From the IMG/VR virus record IMGVR_UViG_3300027851_000029, positions 1-61,927 of that record: a stretch of 61,927 nt of DNA. The stretch is one strand, 5' to 3'. A model generated the notes under the pieces. The model searched no databases. It was not told where the DNA came from and saw nothing but the letters and a program-made list of their open reading frames with translations. Positions within the stretch are counted from its first letter, which is position 1. Every line of letters begins with the position of its first letter. Made by a program: the position numbers and the translations under genes. Shown piece after piece: positions 3,825-59,322 of the stretch. The stretch comes from a virus.

Positions 3825-5107
3825 CCGAAGTCGCCGAACTCCCGCGCCTGGACATGCCCGAGAAGCTGGCCGGCATCTGGAAGCCACGCCGGTACAAGGC
3901 CATGCACGGCGGGCGAGGTGGCGGCAAGTCTTGGACCGTGGCCGGCGTGCTGCTGCTGATGGCCGCTGGCGCACCGCTGCGGGTGCTTTGCGCGCGTGAA
4001 ATCCAGAAGTCCATGAAGGACTCGGTTCACCGGCTGCTGACCGACCAGATCAACCGCCTGCACCTGCATGGGTTCTTCGAGGTGCTGGACACCGAGATTC
4101 GCGGCATCAATGGCTCGCTGTTCCTGTTCACCGGCCTGCAGAGCCACACCGTGGACTCGATCAAGTCCTTTGAGGGCGTGGACATCGTTTGGGTCGAAGA
4201 AGCCCACGGCGTGAGCAAAAAGAGTTGGGATGTGCTGATCCCGACCATCCGAAAGGAAGGCTCAGAAATCTGGCTCACCCTGAACCCGGACATGGAAACC
4301 GACGAGACCTATCAGCGGTTCATCGCCCACCCGAGCCCGGACACATGGGTTTGCGAAATCAACTGGCGCGACAACCCCTGGTTTCCCCGCGTGCTGGACG
4401 ACGAGCGAAAGAAGGCCAAGCGGACCATGCTCAAGGACGACTACGAGCATATCTGGGAAGGCAAAGCCCGCCGCGTGGCCGCTGGCGCCATCTACCGGCA
4501 CGAGGTCGAGACGATCTATCTTGATGGCCGTGTTTGCGCGGTGCCATATGACCCGATCCTGCCGGTGCACACGATATGGGACTTGGGCTGGAACGATGCT
4601 ATGACCATCGGCCTGGTGCAGAAGGGCCCACAGGACATCCGCATCATCGGCTACATCGAGGATAGCCACCGCACGCTCGATTGGTACGTGGCCAAGCTGG
4701 AGAAGCTGCCCTACCGCTGGGGCATCGACTTCCTTCCCCACGACGGCAAGACAAAGAACTTCCAGACCGCCAAGTCCACCGAGGACCGTATGAAAGAACT
4801 TGGGCGCAGGCCGTACCCCGGCTGCTTGCCCATGCAGAACGTCGAGGAAGGCATCAAGGCCGCGCGCATGGAGTTCCCGAAGTGCTACTTCGATGAACTG
4901 AAGACCGCGCGCCTGCTGGAGTGCCTGAAACGCTACCAGCGCCAGATCCACACCGTGACGAACGAGCCCATGGGGCCGCTGCACGACGAATTCAGCCATG
5001 GCGCCGATATGTTCCGCTACCTCGCCCAGGCGGTCCAGCTCATGAAGAACGAACCAGTGCACAGCAAACAGGAAGAAGAGCGCGTCACCGAAGACTGGCG
5101 CTTGTGA
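3821..5107 (+). CDS. terL: Terminase large subunit
   Basis: 428 residues, the usual size for the family. Walker A is GGRGGGKS at residues 30-37 and Walker B with the catalytic glutamate is VDIVWVEEAH at about 120-129. WLTLNPDMETDE (151-162) is the coupling-motif region. The C-terminal nuclease has an RNase-H-like first acidic motif WDLGW (Asp254) and a later FSHGADMFRY motif. The protein is the ATP-driven packaging motor and headful/cos cleavage nuclease docked on the portal. It overlaps terS and is followed seven bases later by the portal gene. Confidence 0.95.
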   Translation: MTEVAELPRLDMPEKLAGIWKPRRYKAMHGGRGGGKSWTVAGVLLLMAAGAPLRVLCAREIQKSMKDSVHRLLTDQINRLHLHGFFEVLDTEIRGINGSLFLFTGLQSHTVDSIKSFEGVDIVWVEEAHGVSKKSWDVLIPTIRKEGSEIWLTLNPDMETDETYQRFIAHPSPDTWVCEINWRDNPWFPRVLDDERKKAKRTMLKDDYEHIWEGKARRVAAGAIYRHEVETIYLDGRVCAVPYDPILPVHTIWDLGWNDAMTIGLVQKGPQDIRIIGYIEDSHRTLDWYVAKLEKLPYRWGIDFLPHDGKTKNFQTAKSTEDRMKELGRRPYPGCLPMQNVEEGIKAARMEFPKCYFDELKTARLLECLKRYQRQIHTVTNEPMGPLHDEFSHGADMFRYLAQAVQLMKNEPVHSKQEEERVTEDWRL

Positions 5108-5114
5108 GGACACC

Positions 5115-7322
5115 ATGAACAGCAATACCACCGACATCCGCGACGGCGCCAACCTGGCACTGTCCATCGAGGAATTCAAGCAGATCGTCAACGAGGCGAT
5201 CAGCCAGCCGCCATGGCGCCTGAATGCCGACATGGAGGCCGACTATGCCGATGGCAACCAGTTGGCGACCGACCTGCTGCAGAAACAGGCCGCGCTCGGA
5301 ATCCCGCCGGCCAAAGAAAACATCATCGGCCCGGCCATCGCCGCGGTGTGCGGCTTCGAGGCCAAGACCCGCACGGACTGGCGCGTGACGCCAGATGGCG
5401 ACCCGGGCGGCCAGGATGTTGCCGACGCCATCAACTACAAGCTGAACCTTGCCGAGCGCCACAGCAAGGCCGACCGCGCGATGTCACAGGCCTTCAAGCC
5501 GCAGATCGGTGTGGGCTTGGGCTGGGTCGAGGTGGCGCGCGCACCGAACAGCCTGATGTTCCCGATCCAGTCCCGCTACGTGCACCGCAACGAAATCTGG
5601 TGGGACATGAAGGACACCGACCCGGGCCTGACGAATGCCCGCTGGCTGTACCGCCGCCGCTGGCCCGAGCGCAGCAAGGCCGCCCAGATGTTCCCCGAGC
5701 ACAAGGACATCATCCTGAACAGCATCGAGCAGTGGGTTGGCGATGCGGCCGGCGACATGCTAGAAGGCGGTCAGTCCACCGGGTTGCAATCTGCGCTCGA
5801 AGCGCAGCGTGCCTGGACCAATGTCGAAGATACGTGGTTCAACACGGAAAACCGCACGGTGTGCATCACAGAGGTCTGGTATCGCCGCTGGGTGCCAACT
5901 CTGATCCTCAAGATGCGCGATGGCCGCGCCGTGGAGTACGACGAGGAAAACGTTGTGCACCAGGCTGCCGCCATGTCGGGCCGCGGCAAGGTGGTCGAGG
6001 AACTGATCCCCCGCATGCGCCGCGCATACTGGATGGGTCCGCACATGCTGCACGACGGCCCGACACCGTACCCGCACGACAAGTTCCCCTACGTCCCATT
6101 CTGGGGCTACCGCGAGGACATGACCGGCATCCCGTTCGGATTGGTCCGGGACATGATTTTCCCGCAGGACAACCTGAACAGCTCCATTGGAAAGCTGCGT
6201 TGGGGCATGAGTTCGGTCACGACGATCCGCACAAAGGGCGCGCTGGCGATGACCGACGCAGCGTTCCGTCAGATGGCTGCGCGAGCGAATGCCGACATCG
6301 TGCTGGATGCCGAACACATGTCGCAGCCCGGAGCGACGTTTGAGCGCAACAGGGATTTTCAACTCACAGATCAGCACTTCAACCTGATGAGCGACTCCCG
6401 TGCCGCCATCGGGCGCATGGGTGTGAGCCCATCGTTCCAGGGCCAGAAAGGCAATGCCACCAGCGGAATTCAGGAGGCGACCCAGGTTGAGCAGTCCGAG
6501 GTATCGCTGTCTGACCTGATGGACAGCTTCAAGGACTCGCGCACCATGGTCGGCGAACTCATCATGGCGCTGGTGATCGAGGACCTAGGCGAAGAAGAGC
6601 AGACGATCGTGATCGAGGGAGACGTCATCAACCCGCCGCGTACCGTGGTGCTGAACAAGCCAGAACTGGATCCGCTCACGAACATGGCCTACCTGTCCAA
6701 CGACATCCAGCGCACCCGCATGCGTGTGTCGCTGGAGGATGTGCCCAGTTCCAGCAGCTTCCGGGCGCAGCAGCTCAACGCGCTGTCCGAGAGCATCAAG
6801 TCGGCGCCGCCGGAGCTGCAGCAGGTGGTCATGCCGTTCATGGTGGACCTGATGGACTTGCCACGCAAGAAGGAGATTGTCGAGGCCATCCGGGCCGCCA
6901 AGCAGCAGGCCGACCCGGACCAGATGCGCGAACAGATCAAGCAGGAACTGATGCTGGAGCTCAAGACCCGCGAACTGGACATCAAGGAGCGCGTGAGCGA
7001 CGCCCAGATCCGCAAGCTGATGGCCGAAGCGGTGCAGACGGGTGTTGCCGCAGCGTTTGCAGCAATCCAGACTGGCGAAAAGATTGCAATCAATCCGCTC
7101 ATCGCTCCCGTTGGCGACGTCATCCTGCAGAACGCAGGCTATCAAAGGCCAAGCCCTGGAGGAATTGACCCAAATATGCCCGTTCCAGATGCGCCAATGG
7201 CTGTTGAGCAGGCTGGAGGAATAGAAGGCGACACAAGTCCAACAACACCTCAGTCTCCACTGGCTCCTGAAAGTGCAGTATTTGGCGTGAATCAGGGCAT
7301 CGAAACGCTGCGCGCAGATTAA
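5115..7322 (+). CDS. Portal protein (P22/Bcep22-like)
   Basis: 735 residues, matching the large portals of P22-like podoviruses. The N-terminal two thirds contain the characteristic NIIGPAIAAVCGFEAKTR, LMFPIQSRYVHRNEIWWD and QGQKGNATSGIQEATQVEQ segments. A long Gln/Glu-rich helical region (about 590-650) suits the crown or barrel. It forms the dodecameric ring at the packaging vertex. From about base 7075 to the stop, GC content drops and codon use changes. A displaced remnant of what looks like the original C-terminal tail lies at 8061-8201, beyond the inserted HNH gene. Confidence 0.93.
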   Translation: MNSNTTDIRDGANLALSIEEFKQIVNEAISQPPWRLNADMEADYADGNQLATDLLQKQAALGIPPAKENIIGPAIAAVCGFEAKTRTDWRVTPDGDPGGQDVADAINYKLNLAERHSKADRAMSQAFKPQIGVGLGWVEVARAPNSLMFPIQSRYVHRNEIWWDMKDTDPGLTNARWLYRRRWPERSKAAQMFPEHKDIILNSIEQWVGDAAGDMLEGGQSTGLQSALEAQRAWTNVEDTWFNTENRTVCITEVWYRRWVPTLILKMRDGRAVEYDEENVVHQAAAMSGRGKVVEELIPRMRRAYWMGPHMLHDGPTPYPHDKFPYVPFWGYREDMTGIPFGLVRDMIFPQDNLNSSIGKLRWGMSSVTTIRTKGALAMTDAAFRQMAARANADIVLDAEHMSQPGATFERNRDFQLTDQHFNLMSDSRAAIGRMGVSPSFQGQKGNATSGIQEATQVEQSEVSLSDLMDSFKDSRTMVGELIMALVIEDLGEEEQTIVIEGDVINPPRTVVLNKPELDPLTNMAYLSNDIQRTRMRVSLEDVPSSSSFRAQQLNALSESIKSAPPELQQVVMPFMVDLMDLPRKKEIVEAIRAAKQQADPDQMREQIKQELMLELKTRELDIKERVSDAQIRKLMAEAVQTGVAAAFAAIQTGEKIAINPLIAPVGDVILQNAGYQRPSPGGIDPNMPVPDAPMAVEQAGGIEGDTSPTTPQSPLAPESAVFGVNQGIETLRAD

Positions 7323-55794: not shown

Positions 55795-55812
55795 GACGAT
55801 CCTTTCGGGAAG

Positions 55813-55862
55813 AAAAAAGCCAGCCACTGTTTCCAGGGCTGGCGAAAAGCACCGAAGTGCTT
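55813..55862 (-). terminator. Tandem terminator-like hairpins in leftward operon
   Basis: Read leftward: AAGCAC-TTCG-GTGCTT followed by TT, then GCCAGCC...GGCTGGC followed by TTTTTT. They lie between the second and third substantial leftward genes, so transcripts need antitermination or a second promoter to reach the recombination genes. Confidence 0.78.
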
Positions 55863-55915
55863 AGGGAGGTAATGTTTAACTACCTGATGCATCGGACGGA
55901 CAAGCCGCCGATGAT

Positions 55916-56427: not shown

Positions 56428-56738
56428 CGTTTTCTCCTTCTGTCGTATGCCGGCTAACCCGTTGGTCAAGCCGACCGTCCTCCTGCGGCGTCCGTCGGCT
56501 TACCGCTGGCGTTAATAGATTTACAGCCAACACTCACTTAAAGCCGTGTTGACATTGGGACAGCGTAGCTGACACGCTGATTGCTGGCCATCAAATAGAA
56601 CCTCTTCGAGGTAGCCTATGCTTTCTCTCACCCGGACTTGATCGTTACGGTTACCGGCCTGAATAAGTTCCACTCTTTGACGGCACTGCGTTTGCAGTAC
56701 CTTTTCGTCGGCATCTCCCTATTGCTAGGCTCCGACTT

Positions 56739-56829
56739 GAGAGTGATTGAAGGTGGTGTCAGGTCTTAAAGGAAATAGCCCGCGTGTTACCGAAGACCCT
56801 CTCGCTGTCCACCACCTTCAATCACTCTC
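56739..56829 (-). repeat. 20-bp perfect inverted repeat with nested stem
   Basis: GAGAGTGATTGAAGGTGGTG at 56739-56758 is the exact reverse complement of 56810-56829. The 51-base loop contains a second pair, GGTCTT/AAGACC. It lies in the 465-base stretch (56428-56892) that has no convincing gene, about 195 bases downstream of the inferred PL start. It could be an RNA structure such as an antitermination site, an untranslated RNA, or a protein-binding site. Confidence 0.8.
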
Positions 56830-56892
56830 TAACTACACACAAACTAACCACCACGCAGCGGCCTATGTGCGGGACGGTCTACCGTCCACTGT

Positions 56893-57021
56893 TTACCGTC
56901 TCACGCCCGGTAAAGCGCTGGCTGTCGTCTGCTCCGAAGAGTGCGAACCGCCAGGTGCAAGTTTTGAAAGAACCCATGTCGCCGCGTCGATCCGGGGCTG
57001 CTCCGACTTGTTTGTCGGCAT
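56893..57021 (-). CDS. Possible leaderless 42-aa peptide from PL
   Basis: ATG at 57021 lies six bases after the PL -10-like TTAGAC, so the message would be almost leaderless, like cro on the other side. The product is polar (MPTNKSEQPRIDAATWVLSK...) with no motif. Coding status is uncertain. Confidence 0.35.
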   Translation of the reverse strand: MPTNKSEQPRIDAATWVLSKLAPGGSHSSEQTTASALPGVRR

Positions 57022-57030
57022 GGATGTAGT

Positions 57031-57066
57031 CTAACCTAGATAGACACAACAAACTAACAAGATTAG
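57031..57066 (-). promoter_or_regulatory. PL promoter with two operators
   Basis: Operators CTAACCTAGATAG (57031-57043) and CTAACAAGATTAG (57054-57066) are 23 bases apart. Read leftward, TTAGTT, 17 bases, TTAGAC forms a sigma-70-like promoter and is followed by TAC as in PR. The repressor should silence the leftward operon here. Confidence 0.75.
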
Positions 57067-57107
57067 ACCAAGCCGACAGACGGTAGCCTTCCGCGTTGCG
57101 CAGACGC

Positions 57108-57130
57108 AAAAAAACCCGCTCAGTGGCGGG
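57108..57130 (-). terminator. Terminator of repressor-lipoprotein operon
   Basis: Read leftward: CCCGC, loop, GCGGG, then TTTTTTT. It lies 26 bases past the lipoprotein stop and keeps lysogenic transcripts from entering the PL region. Confidence 0.85.
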
Positions 57131-57155
57131 CTTGGCTGTTGTTGTGTTGCTTAAG

Positions 57156-57599
57156 TCACTGCGATAGCTTTATCGAGACAATCCTGTCGCCCCACAAAGG
57201 GCCTCTACAGTCTATTTCTGAGTCTTTGTAGCCGTGCTTTTTTGCTTGGAAGCACTCGGATGCCCATGACCTAGACCGCTGAGGGTGAACAAGCTTTATT
57301 GGTGACACGCCTATGGGACGAAGTTCCTGCGCTGTCGGCCCTGAGAAAAACTGCGCCCCTGGAGGGTCTGTATCTAGAAGAAGAATCGCAGGCTCTACAT
57401 CATCAAGCGGCACATACCCGATCGATCGCATCGAGTCGGTGCAGCTTCTGTGAATCGACAAGGCCATAGGTGTTCCGATCCATCCCCAACCATGTGCCGA
57501 GCAGTTTCGGATTTCTCCCGTTGCTGTAGATACGTGCATGGTGCTTTTCACTGCGCAGCCCGTGAGAGCTACAGCTACAAGGACAAGGGCAACTTTCAT
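57156..57599 (-). CDS. Lipoprotein co-expressed with repressor, lysogenic conversion candidate
   Basis: The ATG at 57599 has AAGGAGG five bases upstream and overlaps the repressor stop (ATGA). The 147-residue product has a signal peptide ending in lipobox LTGCA (Cys15). Its mature part includes PAILLLDTDPPGAQFFSGPT, a PEGA-like beta motif often found in surface lipoproteins, and several cysteines. As the only gene between repressor and terminator it should be made in the lysogen, and may change the envelope or exclude other phages. That function is inference. Confidence 0.8.
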   Translation of the reverse strand: MKVALVLVAVALTGCAVKSTMHVSTATGEIRNCSAHGWGWIGTPMALSIHRSCTDSMRSIGYVPLDDVEPAILLLDTDPPGAQFFSGPTAQELRPIGVSPIKLVHPQRSRSWASECFQAKKHGYKDSEIDCRGPLWGDRIVSIKLSQ

Positions 57600-57997
57600 A
57601 AATCCTCCTTGATTGGTTTGGTGATCGGCATCTTACGCTCTACCTCTTCATCTGTGGCAGCTGTAGAGATGAAGGCCATCCAGAAGGCGCGAAGCTTTGC
57701 CCTTCTCTCTTCGGACAGTGAGTCGAAGTCGGCGGCAAACTTCATGGCATCTGGAGTGATGGAGTCCTCCCACAACAGGGCATCAGCAGCGACACCGTAA
57801 AGCTTCGCCAGCTCACGAAGCCTATATATACCCGGATCACCTAGGCCGGTCTCCCACGCAGAGACCGTTCCTTTTCCAATGCCGAAGTGCTTGGCAACCT
57901 GCTCCTGGCTCAACCCGTTCCTTATCCGCTCTGACTTCAGACGCAGGCCTACGCCTTGCCGTATAGGGTCATCACGTCGCTCGTCTTGAGTAGCCAT
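57596..57997 (-). CDS. XRE-family phage repressor (CI-like, no peptidase domain)
   Basis: 133 residues. The helix-turn-helix is at about 15-70 (LRLKSERIRNGLSQEQVAKH, GIGKGTVSAWETGLGDPG). The C-terminal half is helical (SLSEERRAKLRAFWMAF) and lacks the Ser-Lys autopeptidase domain, so induction would not be by self-cleavage. Divergent from cro with two operators between them. It should bind the CTAAC...TTAG sites and maintain lysogeny. Confidence 0.88.
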   Translation of the reverse strand: MATQDERRDDPIRQGVGLRLKSERIRNGLSQEQVAKHFGIGKGTVSAWETGLGDPGIYRLRELAKLYGVAADALLWEDSITPDAMKFAADFDSLSEERRAKLRAFWMAFISTAATDEEVERKMPITKPIKEDL

Positions 57998-58074: not shown

Positions 58075-58326
58075 ATGAAAACAAACCCGGACCTACTTAA
58101 GTCAACCGCGCGTAGGGTGAATGAGCACTTTGGCGGACCTGCCGCTGTTGCTCGCGCTCTTGGCTATGACGACATGCGCAACGTCGCTTACTGGACCTCT
58201 GGTAAGCGCTGGTTCCCACCCAAGCACTGCGTAACGATTGAGCGCCTCAGCGGAGGGAAGATCACACGTAGCGAACTCAGGCCATACGACTTTTCCGAGT
58301 ACTGGCCTGACTTGGTTGGGGTGTGA
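58075..58326 (+). CDS. cro: Cro-like regulator (YdaS/Cro HTH)
   Basis: 83 residues with a helix-turn-helix (STARRVNEHFGGPAAVARAL, then YWTSGKRWFPPKHCVTIERL) like YdaS/Cro proteins. The ATG lies only nine bases after the PR -10-like TTAGAC with no Shine-Dalgarno, so translation is probably leaderless. Divergent from the repressor, it should compete for the same operators and favour lytic growth. Confidence 0.85.
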   Translation: MKTNPDLLKSTARRVNEHFGGPAAVARALGYDDMRNVAYWTSGKRWFPPKHCVTIERLSGGKITRSELRPYDFSEYWPDLVGV

Positions 58327-58848: not shown

Positions 58849-58961
58849 ATGTTTTCCCACCACGCACACGCTGGCACCCACTGCCAATGCACGACCACCC
58901 AACAGCGTTTCTCCCTGCGCTTGGTCGGCGTTTTTCTGCGTGGTGGTTTCTTTTTTCATAA

Positions 58962-58993
58962 GAGTTGCGAAGTCTTTCACAACTCACTTTTTT
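58962..58993 (+). terminator. Early rightward terminator (tR1-like)
   Basis: GAGTTG (58962-58967) pairs with CAACTC (58980-58985), followed after two bases by TTTTTT. It lies in the 165-base gap between the GIY-YIG/HTH gene and the next gene, where lambda has tR1. Confidence 0.65.
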
Positions 58994-59013
58994 GTACATC
59001 ACCCATCGGAACT

Positions 59014-59322
59014 ATGAACAAAGCACCAGCATGTGATTCCAGCCAGTGGCCGTGCGGGACCGCCAAGTCCACCGGAAACGCCTTCACCATGCCTAAACGC
59101 AGCCTGTTTGCAGATGACCAAGCAGAGCGAGCAAAGGCAACGCTTCATTCGCGCAATGTGGCCGTACATGCTCCAACAGGCGGTCACGCAGTCCACGGCC
59201 TGACGAACCTCAGTAAGCGTGGCCAACGACTCCTTGCACCAGTCAAGGTTGGTTTTTGCACTCCAATCGAACCCGCTGGCTCTGGCATTCGTCGGCTGGC
59301 AATTCAGAAAGCGAGCATCTAA
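59014..59322 (+). CDS. Hypothetical early protein, 102 aa
   Basis: The ATG at 59014 is preferred to a far-upstream start that would pass through the terminator. Polar with a Ser/Thr/Pro content and a basic centre (MPKRSLFADDQAERAKATLH). Its stop overlaps the next ATG (TAATG). Function unknown. Confidence 0.5.
   Translation: MNKAPACDSSQWPCGTAKSTGNAFTMPKRSLFADDQAERAKATLHSRNVAVHAPTGGHAVHGLTNLSKRGQRLLAPVKVGFCTPIEPAGSGIRRLAIQKASI

Follow-up and report, generated by a model that had tools for sequence, protein, structure and literature searches.

A removable long-stem domain in a predicted structured early leader RNA, with a boxA-like site, from an IMG/VR phage

A 20-bp perfect inverted repeat, here called LS1, forms one domain of a presumably transcribed, non-coding P_L leader of about 500 nt, which runs from about 57022 to 56520 on the minus strand of IMG/VR virus record IMGVR_UViG_3300027851_000029 (all 61,927 bp of which were analysed and are referred to as the window). 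The leader is a previously undescribed structured RNA, and on sequence comparison LS1 is a removable, modular long-stem domain of it. The explanation preferred here, which is given roughly an even chance, is that LS1 lies within a boxA-bearing structured P_L leader that probably loads Nus factors, LS1 itself most likely being cut by RNase III and clamping a variable interior. Transcription from P_L, Nus loading by boxA and RNase III cleavage of the duplex are steps that we infer. A role of LS1 in RNA processing or in holding a variable domain is more likely than one as an antiterminator.

The arms of LS1 (56739-56758 and 56810-56829) are complementary at 20 of 20 positions and lie 51 nt apart. 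With loops of up to 200 nt allowed, LS1 is the longest perfect inverted repeat in the window, the runner-up having 13 bp, and in each of 40 order-1 Markov simulations of the same composition the longest perfect repeat measured 11-15 bp. No further copy of the arm was found in the window at up to three mismatches, and none in shuffles. When 131 nt around LS1 were folded as minus-strand RNA, the energy was -53 kcal/mol (z = -4.9), which none of 200 shuffles equalled. The repeat is real and non-random. An earlier note on this DNA had described exact 20-base arms, a 51-base loop with GGTCTT and AAGACC inside it and the lack of a U-tract; the arms proved to be 100% complementary over 20 nt, both hexamers are contained in the 51-nt interior, and there is no U-tract directly after LS1. 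The same note had put the repeat early in the leftward transcript downstream of P_L, in a gene-poor stretch of 465 bases. It does fall in the P_L leader, with P_L positioned by homology, and the stretch measured about 500 nt (57022 to about 56520). LS1, a single long stem, begins about 190 nt into the presumed P_L transcript.

The large terminase of the window shares 69% identity with its counterparts in Pseudomonas phages H66 and E220 (Hollowayvirus). The immunity region is defined by an HTH repressor (57596-57997, minus strand) and a Cro/YdaS-like protein (58075-58326, plus strand), and to the left of the repressor follow a terminator, the presumed P_L, about 500 nt without good ORFs, small genes and RecT. 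No sigma70 consensus promoter was found at P_L in the window; P_L was placed by homology because -35-like and -10-like hexamers occur at the matching place in five related contigs (L005, L006, L025, L045 and L046), with differing operator-like sequences. The terminator motif (window 57105-57140) is constant between the window, L005, L006, L025 and L045, whereas the operators that separate it from the leader vary, a pattern that marks an immunity-cassette swap point. A protein-coding leader was considered and rejected, as indels of 1 nt and of 9-10 nt between relatives break the reading frames and the minus-strand ORFs are short. The leader as a whole (407 nt) folds better than its shuffles (z = -4.8). 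On the rightward side, an ORF with the conserved start MFSHHAHAGTHC is present at 58849-59322 (plus strand) in the window, 7616-8077 in L007, 7462-7572 in L025 and 11279-11596 in L045; it gave no Pfam match, resembles the Icd-like proteins annotated in many prophages, and may lie in another regulatory RNA region. The features of the leader and its surroundings are listed in Table 1.

Table 1 Features of the P_L leader and its surroundings in the window, in the direction of transcription.
Feature	Position	Strand	Description
Intrinsic terminator of the repressor/lipoprotein transcript	57112-57133	minus	just upstream of P_L; GCGGGxTTTTTTxCGTCT kept here in L005, L006, L025 and L045
Presumed P_L and operator region	57023-57066	minus	placed from consensus-like promoters that relatives have at the homologous position
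P1, 5' hairpin at transcript start	57003-57018	minus	CCGAC-AAACAA-GTCGG; resembles boxB in position only; covariation A-U to C-G
boxA-like site	56963-56973	minus	GTTCTTTCAAA; 10/11 to GYTCTTTAANA
Helices P4-P8 of the 5' domain	56836-56954	minus	56950-56954/56918-56922; 56908-56914/56892-56898; 56882-56887/56872-56877; 56866-56871/56836-56841; inner helix
LS1	56739-56829	minus	20-bp perfect stem; 51-nt interior with GGTCTT/AAGACC
H3, two-tier hairpin	56707-56736	minus	2x6 internal loop (AG/GAGAUG); GCAA tetraloop
H4 hairpin	56682-56701	minus	GGTACTGC-AAAC-GCAGTGCC; identical in L005 and L007
LS2, weaker long-stem domain	56587-56684	minus	closed by about 9+5 bp; L007 counterpart 22 bp with one mismatch
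Leader 3' end	56518-56593	minus	hairpin AGCGT-GTCAGCT-ACGCT, then conserved GTCCCAATGTCAAC; 78% identity to L007 4758-4838
Terminator inside the operon	55811-55875	minus	ACCTCCCT, two hairpins and a U-tract; 89% identical in L007

In IMG/VR the arm sequence of LS1 was restricted to three contigs of a single metagenome (L005, L006 and L007), always in this leader, and no second metagenome is known to contain the exact LS1 sequence. The window, L005 and L006 appear to come from one metagenome. Positions 1-127 of L006 are identical to positions 1-127 of the window, an exact shared end that indicates an assembly-graph overlap; because of it, L006 appears to be an alternative immunity allele within the phage population of the window. 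Relatives from other samples were L025, found by a helicase search and carrying a homologous leader, and L045 and L046, found with a pattern from the 5' domain. L046 has the order repressor-lipoprotein-leader and the repressor/cro arrangement of the window. Among 30 sources, a model of the 5' domain (R2) matched six leaders at E < 1e-30 and no others, the six being its own building sequences. Its match in L007 was weak but positioned (15.5 bits in a 511-base search), and the L007 leader is a distant relative. An HNH endonuclease gene lies between H3 and H4 of the L007 leader (5008-5481, minus strand); it is omitted from the L007 row of alignments A2 and A4, and intact L007 was searched again. 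L007 also has, at about 5700-5770 (minus strand), a short ORF of some 20 codons with a strong Shine-Dalgarno sequence, GGAGGTTTACGAATG, which runs into the 5' arm of the long stem and has no equivalent in the window.

The window showed no DNA similarity to GenBank phages and plasmids, and the P_L leader of the Pseudomonas F116-like phage H66 gave no match to R2. Rfam at the gathering threshold, with families including GOLLD, ROOL, C4 and tmRNA, gave no match in the window, and at relaxed thresholds nothing credible for the leader, the best sub-threshold leader matches being implausible. No tRNA or tmRNA was found in the window or in the leaders. The exact arm had a single match in a genome collection, to one arm only, inside coding-like sequence and at chance level. 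Among bacterial genomes, one small unrelated phylum was covered.

Compensatory changes are strong evidence, from sequence comparison, for an RNA structure in the leader. In the six-sequence alignment of the 5' domain, 95.3% of helix cells are paired, compared with 25-39% when the partners are slid, and 11 of the 34 pairs have changes on both sides. The covariation score was 0.31, shuffles giving 0.12 and slid partners no more than 0.09, in a sample of six to seven leaders that includes close kin and with a test not corrected for phylogeny. RNAalifold alone gave nearly the same helices. H3, which directly follows LS1 in the window, is 100% paired in six sequences, with double changes in four of nine pairs (GUCGG/CCGAC, GCAGG/CCUGC, GCUGG/CCAGC and GGUGG/CCACC), and its internal loop varies in a linked way, AG occurring with GAGAUG and AA with RAUAUG. 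A hairpin of other sequence occupies the H4 position in L045 and L046. An alternative pairing of P1 with H3, which are complementary in the window and L045, was rejected as the two are not complementary in L046.

A boxA-like site occupies one place in the 5' domain of six of the seven leaders, between flanks that have otherwise diverged. Scored against the boxA consensus GYTCTTTAANA (PMC5725501), the site of L025 (GTTCTTTAAAA) matches at 11 of 11 positions, and those of the window, L006 and L045 (GTTCTTTCAAA), L005 (GCTCTTTAAAC) and L046 (GTTCCTTAACA) at 10 of 11. Because about two 10/11 matches are expected per window by chance, the argument rests on position and conservation rather than on the match. 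The L007 leader has no boxA-like site. In rrn antitermination boxA is the most important element, and the 5' to 3' order is boxB-boxA-boxC (PMC10250234). Here too a hairpin, P1, with loops of AAACA type, stands 5' of the boxA-like site, in the same order as rrn boxB and boxA. No PHROG named N, as in lambda-type antitermination, was present among the ORFs examined.

The long stems of the relatives show that these domains are modular. In their leaders or early left operons they are unrelated in sequence and similar in length, at 15-22 bp. L045 has the leader and H3 and no long stem at the LS1 position. In L025 and L046, H3 directly follows the 5' domain and long stems of other sequence stand further on: L025 has a stem of 21-22 bp around 133 nt and a second one of 15-19 bp, and L046 has a stem of about 15 bp that belongs to this second type and is separated from it by one double change (C-G to A-U). 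These two share the stem and an adjacent hairpin, and their interiors have diverged. In L007 the LS1 arms of the window recur with a single G-U change and enclose an unrelated interior of some 118-120 nt; a second stem, 22 bp long and with one mismatch, lies beyond H4, at the place of a weaker stem in the window. LS1 is identical in the window and L005 at 91 of 91 positions, between flanks that are 86% and 80% identical, which may reflect either constraint or recent exchange. Lack of conservation of the stem in relatives had been named in the earlier note as a result that would refute its reading, and the outcome was mixed: the stem is exact in L005 and L006, nearly so in L007, absent from L045 and replaced in L025 and L046. 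Long stems are also present in the early left region of two more distant helicase relatives, L032 and L036. The early left operons of L025 (4235-4409, minus strand) and L036 (2910-2987 and 3340-3537, minus strand) contain multi-branched RNAs closed by very long stems, whose interiors end next to the 3' arm in tRNA T-arm-like hairpins (GGTTCGAGTCC, GGTTCGATTCC and GGGTTCAACTCCC). ARAGORN found no tRNA in these interiors; that of L036 gave a sub-threshold mascRNA match.

Under the preferred explanation, the P_L RNA would begin with a constant part made of the 5' hairpin, boxA, five further helices and then H3 and H4. By analogy with rrn and lambda leaders, this part probably loads the host Nus/NusB-S10 complex, and the Nus-loaded polymerase would pass Rho-dependent termination in the long untranslated RNA while the RNA folds. 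The two-turn duplex of LS1 would most likely be cut by RNase III, again by analogy, splitting the leader from the downstream mRNA, and the stem would meanwhile clamp the variable interior. RNase III sites are found between nutL and N in lambda P_L and in the leader-trailer stems of rrn operons. An uninterrupted duplex of about two turns, as in such sites, is present in LS1 (20 bp, perfect), and the other stems have 15-22 bp; RNase III favours uninterrupted duplexes (PMC3997798). Cleavage by this enzyme is the simplest common denominator because the stems are long, perfect and diverse in sequence and lie between the leader and the genes. Against the preferred explanation stand the stem of only about 15 bp in L046, the boxA match of 10/11 in the window, the L007 leader with no boxA-like site and the lack of an identified N-like protein. 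The arms are also near-identical in the otherwise diverged window and L007, and the whole of LS1 is identical in L005, which tells against a pure RNase III site because such a site needs no conserved sequence.

Near-identical arms around variable interiors in the window and L007 are what RNase III explains least well, and they feed an unlikely alternative in which LS1 and its counterparts clamp a cargo slot, a constant stem holding a fast-changing interior RNA that acts in trans (a decoy, sRNA or tRNA mimic), for example against host defences. The unrelated interiors of 51 and 118-120 nt within common arms, the diverged interiors of L046 and of the second L025 stem, and the T-arm-like hairpins of L025 and L036, with the one mascRNA match, all suit it. 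The sequences are few, however, the L005 interior is the same as that of the window, and no target was found, there being no complement of at least 12 nt elsewhere in the window. Also unlikely is the idea that a leader resembling that of a small rRNA operon (5' hairpin, boxA and long clamp stems) serves as an RNA cassette slot, its scaffold staying constant while fast-changing, sometimes tRNA-like domains with trans-acting interiors are swapped between phages. The different interiors between common ends, the variable positions of the module and L045, which resembles an empty site, would fit a miniature mobile element, bounded by terminal inverted repeats and inserted in the leader by chance. 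That origin is quite improbable: no target-site duplication was seen, the arms occur in IMG/VR in this leader only and in the genome collection as one lone arm in coding-like sequence, and in L025, L046, L032 and L036 this role is taken by unrelated stems.

It is likewise improbable, if slightly less so, that LS1 itself is a put-like RNA antiterminator, which binds RNA polymerase and lets it pass downstream terminators. Its location in the P_L leader, the conserved terminator-like element downstream at 55811-55875 and the terminator-like hairpins at the ends of the L025 and L045 leaders speak for this, but LS1 is missing from the leader of L045, which is the same in other respects, and in L025 and L046 other stems stand at other positions. 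Moreover, put measures about 70 nt and consists of two adjacent stem-loops with which the P_L transcript begins (PMC9378689), and R2 had no match in HK022 26-31 kb, a stretch presumed to include put. For antitermination, the boxA-bearing 5' domain is the better candidate. A DNA-level site, either a repressor-looping pair or a cruciform, has very little probability; close to operators, the two arms of a perfect inverted repeat could each be bound by a dimer, yet the neighbouring RNA helices carry compensatory changes, helical phase is not preserved among interiors of 51, 118 and 133 nt, and the operators change between immunity types whereas the leader does not. An assembly artefact is scarcely credible. 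The apparent common metagenome of the window, L005 and L006 and the exact L006 overlap, which suggests k-mer edges in one assembly graph, would allow for one, but three contigs with different flanks carry LS1, and contigs from other samples have comparable stems.

The earlier note had offered an RNA-based antitermination element or an untranslated regulatory RNA as the function. The first idea fits the leader, with its boxA-like site in six of seven cases and its long untranslated RNA, and is not supported for LS1 as the antiterminator; of the second, what stands is that the element is RNA and not coding, given the compensatory changes around LS1 and the frame-breaking indels. The two hairpins that it had placed at 55813-55862 are present within 55811-55875, about 870 nt downstream of LS1 and past small ORFs. 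They form a good terminator, follow the lead ACCUCCCU and have a counterpart in L007 (4694-4756, minus strand); this stretch is among the best conserved between these two otherwise diverged phages. Readthrough here could be the purpose of antitermination, but rrn-type antitermination complexes act mainly against Rho. The terminator has the same layout, CCUCC, hairpin, hairpin and U-tract (anti-Shine-Dalgarno type), as RF02278 (Betaproteobacteria toxic sRNA) and RF02837 (anti-hemB), but scores 16-19 bits against a gathering threshold of about 50.

If confirmed, the leader would represent, outside the enterobacterial lambdoids, a new family of large and structured leader RNAs in phages, would tie early-operon control to host rRNA-type Nus antitermination, and would provide a simple system for asking why the earliest transcript of phages repeatedly exchanges long-stem RNA domains, of which some have tRNA-like arms. 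The known kind of element that it most resembles is a structured early leader with probable Nus-dependent antitermination. With GOLLD and ROOL it shares the character of a large, multi-helix, non-coding, phage-associated RNA (PMC12286853), but it is a cis-leader of an operon and has no Rfam match at the gathering threshold. HK022 putL is likewise a structured RNA with which a P_L transcript begins, with possible antitermination in cis; put, however, has a length of about 70 nt, forms two stem-loops and acts by binding to the beta' zinc-binding domain (PMC9378689), whereas the 5' end of the present leader is a 5-bp hairpin with a boxA-like site, which points to Nus factors. The rrn leaders have the same order of hairpin and boxA, long helices closing a downstream structured RNA and a long untranslated RNA; they differ in the rRNA that they enclose, the present leader having a phage promoter and no established boxC. 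Lambda P_L, with nutL boxA and boxB and then an RNase III site before N, is the familiar system for comparison. The leader described here differs from it in its length of about 500 nt, its many more helices, the hairpin before boxA, the interchangeable long stems and the lack of an identified N homolog, and resembles it in being an early leftward leader with a boxA-like site near its start, a long duplex before the first gene and a divergent repressor/cro pair.
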